Source of the DNA: a virus
Reading direction: 5' to 3' (one strand)
Virus record (IMG/VR): IMGVR_UViG_3300031143_000011
Coordinates: 1-45,797 of that record
DNA: 45,797 bases
Both the position numbers and the translations under genes were made by a program. This document shows, piece after piece, positions 830-44,787 of the stretch (position 1 is its first letter; each line of letters begins with the position of its first letter). A model generated the notes under the pieces. It worked only from the letters and a program-made list of their open reading frames with translations. It was not told where the DNA came from and made no database searches.

Positions 830-2695
830 TTAGTGTTTTATTAATTTTTTCTCTACCGTACCATCATCATAGATGTAAAAGAGTAGTTTATTTTTTGTTT
901 CTTTTATTGGTCTACCAAGCACGTCCGTGATTGATAGTAATTTCTTTTCTTCTTTAACCCTACTTAATAATGGTCCAATGTAAGTTCCATCACAATAATT
1001 GTAGGTTAACTGGCAAATGTCATCCCACTCGTTGTCACAACAATAATCGTCTACTGAAATTACCCAAGCGTAGCAAGGGTCGTTTAACCAATAGGGATTA
1101 CCCGGACCAGTAGCACAGTTAGCATCATAATAGCAGTTATTATTATTAACATTAGCGCTATCAGAGTAGTTGTAGGCGTTAGGATCCATGCAACCCATAA
1201 TGATAGTAATACACGAGTTGTTTTCTGTATTAGCCAGTGAATCATAATTGAGGGCAGTTGAGTCCATACAACCGTACGCAAATTCAATACAGCTAAAGTC
1301 CTCAGTGTTCGACGAAGGATCGTAGTTAAGCATTGAGGGATCTGTACAGCCGAATAAAAAAGGAGTACAGCTATTATTGTCAGCATTCGCTAGTGGGTTA
1401 TAGTTAAACATTGTTGAATCGATACATCCAAATACATAAGGATCGCAGTCGTTAGTATTGGTATTACATGTATCACAATAATTAAACATTGTTGGGTCAG
1501 TGCATCCATATATAAGCGGTACACAAGTATCAGGAGTATTTGCTAGAACATTAAAGTTAAAAGCTAATGACTCCATACATCCTAAGATCACAGGTATACA
1601 CCCACCGTTATCTATATTTGCAAGCGAATCGTAATTAAATTGAGTGGTATCAATACAACCCCAAATAGCTGGAGTGGTACAACTCCCATCATCGAAGTCA
1701 GCTACAAACCCCTGTGAGTAAAACTCTAAGTAAGAAGAGTTGATACAACCAGGCGTATAATAACAAGTGCTATCGCTAGTGTTTGCTAATGAATCATAAT
1801 TTAACGCTAGTGGATCTAAACACCCAAGCACTTTATCTATACAGGTATTACCACAATAAGTTATAGCACTATAATTAAACAGTGGTTGAATAAATGGAGG
1901 TGAAACCTCTTTTATTATATCACCTATAGGATTTGTTAGTTTGAAACCACAGTGAGCAGTTGTCAGTTGAGCTTGTTGTGTTATAAAGAATTTAAAGCTA
2001 ACCACCTCAGGCGCATTTAAACTTATAGTAAAGTCTTGTGAAAAGCCAGATGTTAATATGAATACATTTGTGTCAATGCCCTGTATAACCTCTAAATAAG
2101 AACCCACCCAACCGTCACCCAGTAGGTCATATAGAGTCAAAGTATAATCGCAGTTAGGTATTAGAGACATCCTGTTTGCTAGTGAATTATAGTTGAACAT
2201 GGTAGAATCTACACAACCCAATACTATTAAATCCAAACAACTTCCGTCATCTAGATTTGCTGTTGGATTGAATTGTAGGTATAAGGAATCCATACAACCG
2301 AGAACTGGAGGGCAACTATCTGATATAAATACATGGGTGGTATCGTGTCCAAAATTTATAGAGTCGTTCCAAACCAAAGTATCGTTACATTGTAGTAGGT
2401 AATACGAACCATCATTTCCTCCCCATAAAGATCCTGCCATCCCATCACCATAAGCATCTTTCATTACAAGGTTTAACTCTCCTTGTGGTAAGCACATCGG
2501 TATATTGAAAGAGTGGTAGTTACCCAAGTAACCATAAGGACCACCCGACCCCAATATAGCTCCACTAGTATCCGTTATTTCCCAAGATGTTTCCATTGGA
2601 AATTGATCTAGGTTTATATGTAACGAAGATGGAACACAATTCTGACTAAATAATAGTGTAGGTAGTAATAATAATAATAGTATTAGTTTCTTCAT
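830..2695 (-). CDS. Secreted Cys-rich repeat protein with T9SS C-terminal sorting domain, 621 aa
   Basis: Residues 1-18 form a Sec signal peptide (MKKLILLLLLLPTLLFSQ) of Bacteroidota type. The body has about eleven copies of a 30-40-residue repeat that starts with GC followed by D/E/N and ends with a Cys, with an NYDSLAN-like core; this is the repeat found in many marine flavobacterial surface proteins and may bind calcium. Two domains with a Y/L-GDGM or GDGW core (near residues 75-125 and 180-270) and a Cys-rich segment (CCDNEWDDIC) are also typical of such proteins. The last about 40 residues, with DVLGRPI, FYIYDDG and a Lys-rich end, match a type A T9SS sorting domain. The inferred fate is export to the periplasm and then to the host cell surface by the host T9SS. 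Its ATG overlaps the stop of the thioredoxin-like gene (TAATG), implying translational coupling. Confidence 0.88.
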   Translation of the reverse strand: MKKLILLLLLLPTLLFSQNCVPSSLHINLDQFPMETSWEITDTSGAILGSGGPYGYLGNYHSFNIPMCLPQGELNLVMKDAYGDGMAGSLWGGNDGSYYLLQCNDTLVWNDSINFGHDTTHVFISDSCPPVLGCMDSLYLQFNPTANLDDGSCLDLIVLGCVDSTMFNYNSLANRMSLIPNCDYTLTLYDLLGDGWVGSYLEVIQGIDTNVFILTSGFSQDFTISLNAPEVVSFKFFITQQAQLTTAHCGFKLTNPIGDIIKEVSPPFIQPLFNYSAITYCGNTCIDKVLGCLDPLALNYDSLANTSDSTCYYTPGCINSSYLEFYSQGFVADFDDGSCTTPAIWGCIDTTQFNYDSLANIDNGGCIPVILGCMESLAFNFNVLANTPDTCVPLIYGCTDPTMFNYCDTCNTNTNDCDPYVFGCIDSTMFNYNPLANADNNSCTPFLFGCTDPSMLNYDPSSNTEDFSCIEFAYGCMDSTALNYDSLANTENNSCITIIMGCMDPNAYNYSDSANVNNNNCYYDANCATGPGNPYWLNDPCYAWVISVDDYCCDNEWDDICQLTYNYCDGTYIGPLLSRVKEEKKLLSITDVLGRPIKETKNKLLFYIYDDGTVEKKLIKH

Positions 2696-3057
2696 TAAAA
2701 ATCGCTCATTAGTATGTTATCTATTTCTTCTTGTACATCTTCTAGCTTTGCTAGCATTTTAAAACTAAGATCGGCTTGAAACCTAGCAACTTCAAACCCA
2801 TCTTTAAATATGATGATAGTCGGTATAACCGCTATCTTATGTCTTTTCTGCATCTTTGGACTTGTCATTATATCTATATAGCTAACAGTCTCGCAATCAC
2901 TAAGGTCTTGAATCCAATCCACAGCGTTAGCCTCGTTCCATTGAGCATTGAATTGAGATACAGATATTTGCCCTGAAGCTTTATTTGAAAATAATATACA
3001 GACAAGTACTAGTATGTACATCCCGAATATTTTCCAAGTAGCTGTAGGCTTTTCCAT
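2695..3057 (-). CDS. Exported thioredoxin-fold protein lacking the CxxC active site, 120 aa
   Basis: An N-terminal hydrophobic stretch (about residues 9-29, ending KASGQ) looks like a signal peptide or membrane anchor. The rest follows the thioredoxin pattern: a beta strand leading to FNAQW, a helix, a DI-containing strand, then the cis-proline strand IPTIIIFKDG and a final helix. In thioredoxins the Trp is followed by CGPC; here the same place reads NEAN, so both redox cysteines are Asn. The single remaining Cys lies in LSDCE. It therefore cannot act as a dithiol oxidoreductase and may be a binding or chaperone-like scaffold. It is coupled by TAATG overlaps to the gene on each side. Confidence 0.82.
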   Translation of the reverse strand: MEKPTATWKIFGMYILVLVCILFSNKASGQISVSQFNAQWNEANAVDWIQDLSDCETVSYIDIMTSPKMQKRHKIAVIPTIIIFKDGFEVARFQADLSFKMLAKLEDVQEEIDNILMSDF

Positions 3058-3341
3058 TATCTTAACGCATCTATTTTATTCTCCATTCTTATTAATCTTT
3101 CTTTCAACTCTAGGACATCCTCTTGAGTTGTAAGGATCGTTTGACGTATCATCTGATCTTTCATATCGAACTCCATACGACTGACGTCTGATGCCACTGG
3201 GGCTGGTAGGGTCCTTGCTTCTGCGATATCAGCCTGTAGCATAAACCACATACTAATCACGGTGGCCATAGCTGCTCCAATACCCACGAGGGTTTTTATA
3301 CTTACCTGGAAGCCTGAGTTTTCGTTTAGTTCTTTTGTCAC
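3057..3341 (-). CDS. Single-span membrane protein with coiled coil (spanin-like candidate), 94 aa
   Basis: The protein has a short polar N-terminus, one hydrophobic segment (about residues 14-36, LVGIGAAMATVISMWFML), and a C-terminal half with a heptad-like charged helix (residues 55-94). This layout fits an inner-membrane protein with a coiled coil on the periplasmic side, as in i-spanins, but no partner o-spanin lipoprotein is evident, so the lysis role is only a possibility. The stop overlaps the start of the thioredoxin-like gene as TAATG, pointing to coordinated translation with the exported proteins downstream. Confidence 0.75.
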   Translation of the reverse strand: MTKELNENSGFQVSIKTLVGIGAAMATVISMWFMLQADIAEARTLPAPVASDVSRMEFDMKDQMIRQTILTTQEDVLELKERLIRMENKIDALR

Positions 3342-3349
3342 GCTAGCTG

Positions 3350-3868
3350 TTATTTCAATTTAGTAAAATCACCCGTATAAGAACCTTTCTTTCCTTGTTT
3401 TTTTGTTGGCTGATCAGCTTTGGCACTTGTAGCCATCATCATTCCAGCTACGCCTAAAGCTTTGCCACCTACTAATTTACCAGCTTTCTTCGCAAATTGT
3501 TTAGCTGTGTTTTTAAACACTTTAGTTGTTCTACCCAAAATTGAAGCAGGTTTTTTAGCTACCTTAGCGAGCTTACCAGCTTTGCTAGTTCCAGTTGTAT
3601 TAAAGTTTTTTGGCAGGGTTGTTTTTGCTGCTGCTTTAGCTGACTTAGTAGTTTTATAACCAGGGGTGGTGGATTTTCCCCCCTTAGCGTTAAAGTTTTT
3701 TGCTTTTTTAATTTCAGCTCGTTTGATAGCGTGTTCAGCTTCCTTCATTTCATTTAATATCATCCCGCCTGGTTTTACCGCTGGTTTTTGAGTATACTTT
3801 TTTCCCTGTTTTACTGGAGAGGATCCCATCATTTTGAAAGGTCCGCCCGAAGGTTGTTTATATGCCAT
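3350..3868 (-). CDS. Lys/Ala-rich basic protein with PFKM motif, 172 aa
   Basis: The protein is extremely rich in Lys, Ala, Gly and Thr, resembling histone H1-like or internal DNA-binding virion proteins in composition. Near its N-terminus it has GGPFKMMGSSP, which matches a PFKM/PFKL element seen in three other small basic proteins at the right end of the window. A short hydrophobic Gly/Ala stretch lies at about residues 132-150 (VGGKALGVAGMMMA). No enzymatic motif is visible. It lies between the beta-barrel gene and the spanin-like gene with 8-nt gaps on each side, so it is part of one transcript. Nucleic-acid binding is inferred from charge only. Confidence 0.75.
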   Translation of the reverse strand: MAYKQPSGGPFKMMGSSPVKQGKKYTQKPAVKPGGMILNEMKEAEHAIKRAEIKKAKNFNAKGGKSTTPGYKTTKSAKAAAKTTLPKNFNTTGTSKAGKLAKVAKKPASILGRTTKVFKNTAKQFAKKAGKLVGGKALGVAGMMMATSAKADQPTKKQGKKGSYTGDFTKLK

Positions 3869-3876
3869 GTTGTTTT

Positions 3877-4983
3877 TTAAAATATTACGTAGTTAATTCC
3901 TAATTTAAAGTCATACCAAGTTCTGTTCCAGTATTTATTGTATTTCCCCTCGAGAAAATATCCAAATGATTTGCTATGCTTAATTCCATATATAAGTCCC
4001 ATTGAGTAATCCACCCATTGTTTACCCTCGTATTTGTGATAAGAGTAATCACTACCCTCGTCGAGATGATAAGGCATGAAACTTCCCCAAACGTGAGACC
4101 AGCTTTTCTTTCTGTATTTATAGTAGTCAAACCCTAAGACAACAGAGTGCTGCAGAGTTTGTTTTAATTCGTTTCTTTTTCTTTCAGAGTAATCAGATAA
4201 TACTTCTGGTATAACTAATACCTCCCAAACCTCTGGACTTGTAGCGACTAGCGTTCCATCTGGAGCGAAGTACTCGCTGCTATACACATCCACATTATAA
4301 CCTTCTTGTAGTGCTAAATAAGTATAATGAATATCTCCATTGTCTAACAACCATTCCTCTAAAGGATCATATCCATACGGTTCAGCAAGTCTTTGGGCAA
4401 TTCCTAGATTCCAAGATAAGTTTTTATTTATCTTCATTCTAAACCTTTCCGATGCTTCAAAGTATTTTATATCCGCAAAACCATTCTCTAGATACTCTAA
4501 CTTAAGTGCGAAGAAGTTTATACATATCTTACTATCACAACCGTCATCAGAGCTATATCTAACGAAATGATGTTGATCTAGATAACTTTCGCCTTCTTGT
4601 CTTGTGTAATTTATTTCAAACAAATATTCAACTCCTTTGGATTTCCCCACAATGGCCGCATCACTGTAGTTTGACTCTGTTCCATCGTAAAATGTTTGGG
4701 CTTTATTTTCGTAGCCGAATCTAGCTATTTTACGTAGACCTATAGCGAAGTTGTAATCGAAAGGAGTTGATATTGTCTGTGTTGTTAGTCCATTGTTTAC
4801 AGAGTAAACATCTATGTCAGAAAGCGATGTACCACCATTTACAGCAGCGTAAAACGTAGAGAACTTAAAAAGCTTCTTAACACTCTCTTTACTAAGCGAT
4901 TGAGCTGTTACTAGGTTTGATACTAGCAAAAGCAATATTATTAATCTTTTCACCATCTTTATATTATCACTTAATTTGTTCAT
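3877..4983 (-). CDS. Predicted exported outer-membrane beta-barrel-like protein, 368 aa
   Basis: After a short N-region, MVKRLIILLLLVSNLVTAQS (about residues 10-29) is a clear signal peptide. The mature part has many alternating polar/aromatic strands, and the last residues, WYDFKLGINYVIF, end in Phe, the classical C-terminal signature of outer-membrane barrels recognised by the Bam machinery. A pair of Cys (DGCDSKIC) sits in a predicted loop. The chosen start leaves 7 nt to the upstream stop and has an A-rich leader; a start at 4956 would be equally good and sits right at the signal peptide. A phage-encoded surface barrel could block re-infection or alter the envelope, but this is inferred from topology, not from a recognised family. 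Confidence 0.78.
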   Translation of the reverse strand: MNKLSDNIKMVKRLIILLLLVSNLVTAQSLSKESVKKLFKFSTFYAAVNGGTSLSDIDVYSVNNGLTTQTISTPFDYNFAIGLRKIARFGYENKAQTFYDGTESNYSDAAIVGKSKGVEYLFEINYTRQEGESYLDQHHFVRYSSDDGCDSKICINFFALKLEYLENGFADIKYFEASERFRMKINKNLSWNLGIAQRLAEPYGYDPLEEWLLDNGDIHYTYLALQEGYNVDVYSSEYFAPDGTLVATSPEVWEVLVIPEVLSDYSERKRNELKQTLQHSVVLGFDYYKYRKKSWSHVWGSFMPYHLDEGSDYSYHKYEGKQWVDYSMGLIYGIKHSKSFGYFLEGKYNKYWNRTWYDFKLGINYVIF

Positions 4984-41287: not shown

Positions 41288-41704
41288 TTAATCGTTTCCG
41301 TTATTTGCGTCATTTTCCCAAGGAAAACCAGTGTCTCCAGCCTCCTTCCATTGTCCATCTACTAATATAGAGTCTATTCCATTTATATCAGTTCTTTCAA
41401 ATCTCTCTCCATTATATGTAATATGGTCATCATCGTAAGTTAACTTACCAAGCTTCATATCTGTGGCGTGTCTCATTTCATGATTCACAGTTTGCCTGTA
41501 CTCAAAGCTATTAGGGTTAAGCTTGTCGCTCACATATATACTCCCGTCCATATTAGCCTCGCCTAAGATGCCGTCACCAAGTGGTTTAACTATAATAGGT
41601 GTTCCAGGAATAGTAGTTTCCTCGTTGCGAATAAAGCTAAGTTTAGATTTAATTTCTCCGTTACTTGCTTGTAAACCTCTTTCTTTCCCTAGTTTAAAAG
41701 CCAT
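41288..41704 (-). CDS. Small HExxH metallopeptidase-like protein, 138 aa
   Basis: The segment TVNHEMRHATDMKLGKL carries a canonical zinc-binding HExxH motif (HEMRH) followed by HATD, three residues later Asp, as a third ligand candidate. The N-terminus MAFKLGKERG resembles the PFKL proteins nearby. A beta region with DGSIYVSDKLNP precedes the motif. Peptidase activity is plausible but unproven; at 138 aa it is small, so it could be a virion-processing protease or a lysis-related peptidase near the holin gene. Its ATG overlaps the stop of the preceding basic protein (TAATG). Confidence 0.75.
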   Translation of the reverse strand: MAFKLGKERGLQASNGEIKSKLSFIRNEETTIPGTPIIVKPLGDGILGEANMDGSIYVSDKLNPNSFEYRQTVNHEMRHATDMKLGKLTYDDDHITYNGERFERTDINGIDSILVDGQWKEAGDTGFPWENDANNGND

Positions 41705-42970: not shown

Positions 42971-43228
42971 TTATTCTACTAAGACAACGTCTCTTGACTG
43001 TATAACTTGGTATAAATCATCTTTCCAAGATATAGCGTGTCCAGCGTGTTTGTCATAGAATATAGTATCTCCATCTTTTAATCCTTCGACTAGATTTCCA
43101 GTGGATATTATCTTTGCTTTAATGTATCTGTTATCTACATCAGTATCATCAGTCATTATAAGACCGGCAACCGTTTTAGGTTCTGTTTTTATCTTATCGA
43201 CTATTACATAGTTATTTATCGCTTGCAT
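42971..43228 (-). CDS. groES: Co-chaperonin GroES, 85 aa
   Basis: The protein begins MQAINNYVIVDKIKTEPKTV and carries a mobile-loop-like segment VAGLIMTDDTDV that corresponds to the GGIVLT loop of GroES, then KAKIISTGNLVEGLKDGDTI, the barrel strands, and ends VIQSRDVVLVE. Length is slightly shorter than bacterial GroES (about 97 aa), the roof loop being reduced. A longer frame begins 27 nt upstream, but this ATG overlaps the groEL stop exactly (TAATG), which decides the start. It forms the lid for the GroEL ring encoded next to it. Confidence 0.93.
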   Translation of the reverse strand: MQAINNYVIVDKIKTEPKTVAGLIMTDDTDVDNRYIKAKIISTGNLVEGLKDGDTIFYDKHAGHAISWKDDLYQVIQSRDVVLVE

Positions 43229-44787
43229 TATTGTCTCATGTTTGAAATTACACAATCAGCAGAGATGATAGTAAGAACTACACTCACGGCATTTTTTAAC
43301 GCGGACTTGGTCACAAGTACCGGATCTATTATCCCAGCATCGATCATCTTAACTCTCTCACCAGTTATACAGTCAACACCATAACCCTCGTGATCCTCCG
43401 TACCTTCCATGATATGTATACCAGCATTGTGAAGAACCGTGTGGAAAGGAGCTTGAATAGCTTTCATTAGTATCTTTTCACCAACCGCTTTAGCGGAGAT
43501 TTTGTTAGATGCATTTAACAGTGCCACTCCACCACCTGGGACGATACCTTCTTTCAAAGCTGCTTTTGTAGCGTAGATAGCGTCTTCTATTCGATCTTTC
43601 TTTTCTTTGAGCTCTATCTTTGAATCAGCACCTACTTTAACCATACCAACAGATCCTGACAGCATAGCTAGTCTCTGTCTGTGTTTCTTTTGGATAAACG
43701 GGTTCTTATCCCATTCTTCAATAGTTTTCTTAATACTAGCTATTCTCTCTTCCATCTGTTCTTCTGGAGTCTCTATAGTAAGTACTGTGTTTCTGTCATC
43801 AGTGATAGCTGTATAAGCTTCACCTAAGCAATCTATATTTATAAGATCTAAATCATCGCCTAACTGTTCGTCAATAACCTTAGCACCCACTAGAAATGCT
43901 AGGTCAGCAACGGTGTCGTCTTTAGTAGGACCAAAGCCTGGTAAGTCGATTATATTAACCTTAATGTTACCCTTGACCTTATTCATAAGAAGAGCAGCCT
44001 TAACTTGTTGTCCGACTGGGGCAACGATAAGTAATGGTCGCTTAGTCTTTATAACATGCTCGAGTACTGTTTGTATTTTTCTTACGTTAGGAATTTCTGA
44101 AGATACTATTAATACTAATGGGTTGTCAAGCTCAGCTATCTGCTTGTCCTTATCAGTAACGAAATGTGGTGATGTAAGTCCTGAATCTATCTGAACTCCG
44201 TCGACGATCTCGACATATGTTTCTTCAGTTGGGGACTCTTCCATTAATACCACACCATCTTTACCTACTTTAGTATAAGCTTCCGCTATAATCTTTCCAA
44301 GCTCTTCGTCATTGTTACAACTAATAGAACTTACAGATTTCAGCATATCGCCTTCGATCTTGACAGAAACTTTATCTAGGTAATCATTCACCTTCTTAAG
44401 ACCGGATCTGACTCCGTCTTTGACTTCTCTCATTGATGCTGTAACATCTTTGTGAGTAATTTCTTTTAACAGCGCCTCAGCAAGGACGGTAGCCGTTGTG
44501 GTACCATCACCTGCTTCTCTCACTGTGTTTCTGGCAGCTTCTTTAATAAGGGTTGCACCCATATTTTCAACCGGGTCAAATAAGACTACAGATTCTGCTA
44601 CTGTAACGCCGTCTTTTGTTATAACCGGTAAACCTCGAGCATCTTCATAAATTACGCATTTACCTGACGCGCCTAAAGTTGATTTCACTGCCTTAGCTAG
44701 CTTTTCCACGCCAGCAATTATTTTTGAATTAGCGTCGTTGCCAAAACTTACGTCTTTGACAATCTCGCTTGGACTTGTATATTCCAT
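43228..44787 (-). CDS. groEL: Chaperonin GroEL, 519 aa
   Basis: Full-length chaperonin 60. The ATP-binding and hydrolysis parts are intact: VITKDGVTVA, the AGDGTTTATVLAEAL motif, and RIEDAIYATKAALKEGIVPGGG with its catalytic Asp. The apical domain is present (VDGVQIDSGLTSPHFVTD...PLLIVAPV), but the substrate-binding residues differ from bacterial GroEL: E. coli YLSPYF becomes LTSPHF. The C-terminus ends in ISNMRQ without the Gly-Gly-Met tail. The gene reads with groES through a TAATG overlap. It likely folds capsid or other large virion proteins of this phage. Confidence 0.98.
   Translation of the reverse strand: MEYTSPSEIVKDVSFGNDANSKIIAGVEKLAKAVKSTLGASGKCVIYEDARGLPVITKDGVTVAESVVLFDPVENMGATLIKEAARNTVREAGDGTTTATVLAEALLKEITHKDVTASMREVKDGVRSGLKKVNDYLDKVSVKIEGDMLKSVSSISCNNDEELGKIIAEAYTKVGKDGVVLMEESPTEETYVEIVDGVQIDSGLTSPHFVTDKDKQIAELDNPLVLIVSSEIPNVRKIQTVLEHVIKTKRPLLIVAPVGQQVKAALLMNKVKGNIKVNIIDLPGFGPTKDDTVADLAFLVGAKVIDEQLGDDLDLINIDCLGEAYTAITDDRNTVLTIETPEEQMEERIASIKKTIEEWDKNPFIQKKHRQRLAMLSGSVGMVKVGADSKIELKEKKDRIEDAIYATKAALKEGIVPGGGVALLNASNKISAKAVGEKILMKAIQAPFHTVLHNAGIHIMEGTEDHEGYGVDCITGERVKMIDAGIIDPVLVTKSALKNAVSVVLTIISADCVISNMRQ

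Follow-up and report, generated by a model that had tools for sequence, protein, structure and literature searches.

A conserved four-gene phage cassette encoding a putative cargo for type IX secretion by the host

The window, a virus record of 45,797 bases, carries on its minus strand, at positions 830-2695, a gene for a 621-amino-acid protein with 37 cysteines that has more than 100 viral orthologs. This protein, here called the cargo, is encoded by one gene of a conserved cassette whose order is outer-membrane beta-barrel, single-transmembrane (TM) coiled-coil protein, thioredoxin-like protein and cargo. Comparison of the sequences suggests that the cargo is a phage-encoded substrate exported by the type IX secretion system (T9SS) of the host, a reading to which we assign a probability of about 0.87. 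Three independent lines of evidence point to its C-terminal tail as a T9SS sorting signal: the exchange of tails among viral orthologs, the distribution of the same tail in cellular genomes, and a profile-profile alignment. A phage-encoded T9SS substrate was the central claim of the original prediction, and it is well supported through orthologs rather than through a direct domain match.

The open reading frame is real and its N-terminus obeys the Q rule, as expected of the Sec signal peptide originally proposed. By this rule the signal peptidase I of Bacteroidetes exposes a glutamine (PMC5837995). The N-terminus reads MKKLILLLLLLPTLLFS, followed after the predicted cleavage site by QNCVPS, and the signal peptide comprises residues 1-17 (positions 2645-2695, minus strand) with cleavage predicted before Q18. 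Signal peptides were called by hydrophobicity and the Q rule across the cargo family, and all 84 non-redundant orthologs had both a hydrophobic N-terminus and a Q-rule-like site. Positions 1115-2299 encode about 10 units of a disulfide-type repeat, GCxDxxxxNYxxxANxxxxxC, with one beta-sandwich domain inserted among them, as judged from the sequence and an AF2 model (mean pLDDT 74). A Cys-rich domain, CYAWVIxVDxYCCxNxWDxIC, near-invariant in the alignment, lies N-terminal of the tail (992-1117), and the putative short sorting signal, of about 47 residues, is encoded at 833-973; all of these features are on the minus strand. A fold search with the cargo model gave scattered C2-like and beta-sandwich matches of low TM-score that were not interpretable, and a PHROGs search with the cargo, the barrel and the thioredoxin-like protein gave nothing useful. 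The cargo gene adjoins a gene at 119-826, and related phages have two or three homologs of that gene in tandem at this position.

The C-terminus of the cargo reads LLSITDVLGRPIKETKNKLLFYIYDDGTVEKKLIKH and follows the tail pattern DVLGR...FYIYDDGTVEKK. The strings on which a T9SS type A sorting domain had been proposed (DVLGRPI, FYIYDDG and a Lys-rich end, here VEKKLIKH) are exact in the sequence. The match to TIGR04183 or PF18962 by which that proposal was to be checked was absent: the whole cargo and its last 69 residues hit no Pfam or NCBIfam family, these two included, at E≤10. Read literally, this is the outcome that had been named in advance as refuting the proposal. Like T9SS type A cargo, the protein combines a Sec signal with a C-terminal sorting domain, but its tail, of about 45-48 residues, scores below both models and has neither the YPNP motif nor the first strands of the type A domain. 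In the AF2 model the tail forms three strands only (pLDDT about 80), and the type A CTD fold is a 3+4 beta-sandwich. A PDB search with the tail profile returned no match. The tail reads as a shortened type A sorting domain, to judge from its relatives, and no model in Pfam or NCBIfam covers it. Of the proposed domain assignment, then, a sorting signal homologous to CTDs stands, on the alignment and the exchanges described below, but a standard type A domain does not. In HBP35 the final 22 residues have been identified as the T9SS signal, which indicates that a short tail can suffice; CTDs can also be species-specific (PMC11285876).

Because the tail itself matched no curated model, its role as a sorting signal was tested through its viral and cellular relatives. 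One scan yielded 131 related viral places. With repeats removed there were 112 distinct cargo sequences, 99 of them 3'-complete. The short tail closes 66 of the 99, and a canonical tail of the form YPNP...GxY...KxIIK closes 32; the remaining one has no tail in frame, its gene being split by a frameshift with the short tail present in another frame. All 23 canonical tails tested match both TIGR04183 (best E value 2.3e-13) and PF18962 (best 1.8e-13). The two types exchange at the same point of the cargo, and the bodies that carry them can be closely similar: L201, with a canonical tail, and L183, with a short one, are 87.6% identical over 428 core residues. On a tree of 85 cargo cores 14 tail switches are needed, at least 12 of which are forced by well-supported branches. 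Since the two tail types have been exchanged repeatedly on a constant body, the simplest explanation is that both do the same job.

The two tail types also resemble one another directly. An hhalign comparison of a short-tail profile (n=124) with a canonical profile (n=39) aligned them in C-terminal register with E=5.1e-5 and a probability of 67%. The score of 26.2 exceeded those of all 60 column shuffles, which reached at most 14.9. An earlier comparison with shallower profiles had been weak (probability 2.4%).

A 48-residue tail query found 188 confirmed places in bacterial genomes, well beyond what chance would give, and the best 80 of these lie almost all in metagenome-assembled genomes (MAGs) of marine Flavobacteriales. 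Against single genomes the short-tail profile reached E values down to 1e-22. The short tail occurs in 57 of 148 sampled Flavobacteriales genomes, mostly small ones, and in each of ten host-type MAGs the short tails number 22-51 and the TIGR04183 domains 31-64. SprA, the T9SS translocon, was found in 7 of the 10 MAGs that bear the short tail; it was not found in the other 3, where incomplete assembly is likely. The cellular open reading frames that end in the short tail have differing bodies, and 72 of the 77 that are 5'-complete begin with a signal peptide. The many copies per genome, the C-terminal position, the signal peptides and the varied bodies suggest that the short tail serves exported proteins as a modular tag at their C-terminus. 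As an observation in its own right, these tails (L091-L166) constitute a class of short sorting signals, dozens per marine Flavobacteriales genome, that TIGR04183 and PF18962 miss. The repeats of the cargo, too, have cellular counterparts in long secreted host proteins. A signal peptide is present in 14 of the 15 such proteins that are 5'-complete, and a sorting domain ends about 11 of the 15 that are 3'-complete when judged by eye (5 by a strict script rule). Because such repeat proteins of the host are secreted, the phage cargo appears to be fitted out as a surface protein of the host would be.

The partners of the cargo are conserved in kind and order. Among 99 distinct four-gene sets, 90 are arranged as barrel, TM, thioredoxin-like, cargo; in 8 the barrel gene follows the cargo gene, the other three keeping their order, and in 1 the cargo gene comes first. 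TAATG stop/start overlaps join the last three genes. The barrel gene (3877-4983, minus strand) is the most conserved of the cassette, with 77% mean column identity and 423 viral matches. Its AF2 model has 12 strands at moderate confidence (pLDDT 68), and a fold search with it gave generic porin-like matches without a named family. The TM protein (3057-3341, minus strand) has a predicted periplasmic coiled coil and, by inspection, an i-spanin-like layout; it is kept in the cassette and matched no family in Pfam or NCBIfam. The thioredoxin-like protein (2695-3057, minus strand), whose gene overlaps both neighbours, is predicted to be exported and has a weak match to thioredoxin. Q-rule signals are found on it and on the barrels, some of which have a lipobox-like start. 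An invariant WNxxN replaces the WCxxC of thioredoxin, so that disulfide exchange by the usual chemistry is not open to this protein; its C-terminus (FQADLSFKM...MSDF) is nearly invariant. A Lys/Ala-rich protein encoded inside the cassette of the window (3350-3868, minus strand) is mostly missing elsewhere. In L248, a phage contig within a MAG, the order is cargo, barrel, TM, thioredoxin-like, and genes of queuosine type and an amidase endolysin gene adjoin the cassette.

These features suggest the following route. The cargo would be made during lytic infection, would cross the inner membrane by Sec with its Q-rule signal peptide, and would fold in the periplasm with many disulfides. The host T9SS would then carry it over the outer membrane by way of the short C-terminal signal, so that it would end up on the infected cell's surface or outside it. 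It may act with three presumably co-transcribed partners: the beta-barrel in the outer membrane, the single-TM coiled-coil protein, and the thioredoxin-like protein that has no catalytic cysteines. The likeliest benefit to the phage would be superinfection exclusion, in which the cassette alters the outer surface and blocks the adsorption of further phages. A membrane barrel together with a surface protein fits such a function, to which we give somewhat less than even odds. A more elaborate version, less likely than not, is a horizontally exchanged surface-remodelling system of marine crass-like phages, in which barrel, TM protein and Cys-less thioredoxin would form a dedicated relay in periplasm and outer membrane that delivers or anchors the T9SS cargo as a defence-like coat on the infected cell, with tails swapped between phages to fit different hosts.

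The cassette might instead serve egress, breaching or loosening the outer envelope to let progeny out of a host whose surface layer is built by the T9SS. The i-spanin-like layout of the TM protein and the amidase endolysin beside the L248 cassette are consistent with this. On other phage backbones the cassette lies about 0.5-7 kb from a DUF5675 (Tlde1-like) gene at 38 of 142 loci and at a similar distance (again about 0.5-7 kb) from a gene for a 3-TM holin-like protein at 44 of 142, both counts standing without a baseline from random late genes. In the window, however, about 37 kb separate the cassette from the holin-like gene, and no lytic domain of Pfam or NCBIfam occurs in any cassette protein, so that a role in egress seems rather unlikely.

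The phage of the window is probably Crassvirales-like. Its 2306-residue protein encoded at 18669-25589 matches crAss muzzle models (PF25731, 35.5 bits with a cut-off of 27; PF25729, 36.2), and a muzzle match of this kind was found on 38 of 50 carrier contigs. This muzzle-like protein bears two cargo-type GC repeats near its C-terminus. That repeats in the muzzle always mirror those of the cargo was considered and rejected, as two complete muzzles, L264 and L265, have none; most of the muzzles compared were cut. The terminase of the window is nearest, among annotated records, to that of an unclassified spring podovirus and then to those of Flavobacterium elemo, Cellulophaga and Tenacibaculum phages. 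The terminase matches on 37 of 50 carrier contigs range from 94% down to about 25% identity, which indicates that the cassette spans several phage lineages. In annotated phage records there was no barrel gene, no TM gene and no significant match to the tail. The window also encodes adjacent GroES and GroEL (42971-44787) and a small protein (41288-41704) that contains the motif HEMRH (HExxH), is possibly a zinc metallopeptidase and has no Pfam match.

The muzzle repeats bear on another explanation, that the cargo is a secreted adhesin or decoy by which infected cells, or virions, adhere to particles or to other cells, or which soaks up competing phages. The same repeats are found in long host proteins that are secreted and in the muzzle of the window, and an S-CAM3 protein annotated as virion structural bears repeats too, all of which agrees with this. 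We nevertheless consider it unlikely, since the repeats are not a constant feature of muzzles and the constant company of the barrel and the thioredoxin-like protein would be left unexplained.

That the cargo is itself a virion (tail) protein, whose host-derived C-terminus was gained by recombination as a passenger and is never used for secretion, is improbable. Its gene does lie within the late structural region and related repeats do occur in virion proteins, but signal peptides are found across the whole cargo family, the barrel and thioredoxin-like partners carry them too and are predicted to be exported, and the tail is kept, or exchanged only for another sorting domain, in 98 of 99 orthologs. 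Least credible is a lysogenic conversion factor, or a host gene on a misassembled contig, because, although cellular proteins share the repeats and the tail, no integrase was found on 44 carrier contigs, a terminase match is present on 37 of 50, and of 148 Flavobacteriales genomes a single one has the barrel, its contig also bearing phage genes.

Export by the host T9SS is thus the preferred reading, and it has precedents. Cryophage likewise has genes with T9SS sorting domains, there of type A, for which hijacking of the host system and possible superinfection exclusion were suggested (PMC7468147). Those are three variable genes (endoglucanase, GH39 and PA14) of one phage, whereas the system of the window has a single repeat protein, conserved and part of a fixed cassette, known from about 100 distinct sequences in several lineages, with exchanged sorting domains. 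The crass-like Bacteroidetes phages of crAss-BACON cluster 2 also encode proteins with T9SS sorting domains near head genes; those contigs have BACON domains and come from the gut, and they are not known to have barrel, TM or thioredoxin partners or a short tail (PMC6949934). Given these two, the original suggestion of a new way to remodel the host surface was too strong. The effects it named, a block to re-infection, changed gliding or aggregation of cells, are candidate functions. Q-rule signal peptides occur on proteins of P. gingivalis phages as well, for which envelope modification was suggested and T9SS is unmentioned (PMC10367356). A looser parallel, by analogy alone, is superinfection exclusion of the T5 Llp type (PMC9586334), in which the phage makes a protein that is exported during infection to the outer membrane of the host. 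Llp is a small lipoprotein that acts on FhuA, and neither T9SS nor a surface repeat protein is known to be involved. Searches of open-licence papers turned up no account of the cassette, of the exchange of tails or of the short tail. Phage-encoded T9SS cargo was already known, and what is new here, and absent from the original prediction, is the conserved four-gene cassette, the swapping of tails and the wide occurrence of the short tail.

The surface of Bacteroidota is the work of the T9SS, for which phage cargo genes had so far received only passing mention. With a conserved cassette present in many ocean phages, the hijacking of T9SS by phages becomes a general, testable claim. Since current models miss a shortened sorting signal that is present in dozens of copies per genome, the sizes given for T9SS secretomes of these bacteria are probably too low. 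The cassette also provides a handle on the surface biology of uncultured marine Flavobacteriales, in which the infected cell is probably re-dressed by the virus.
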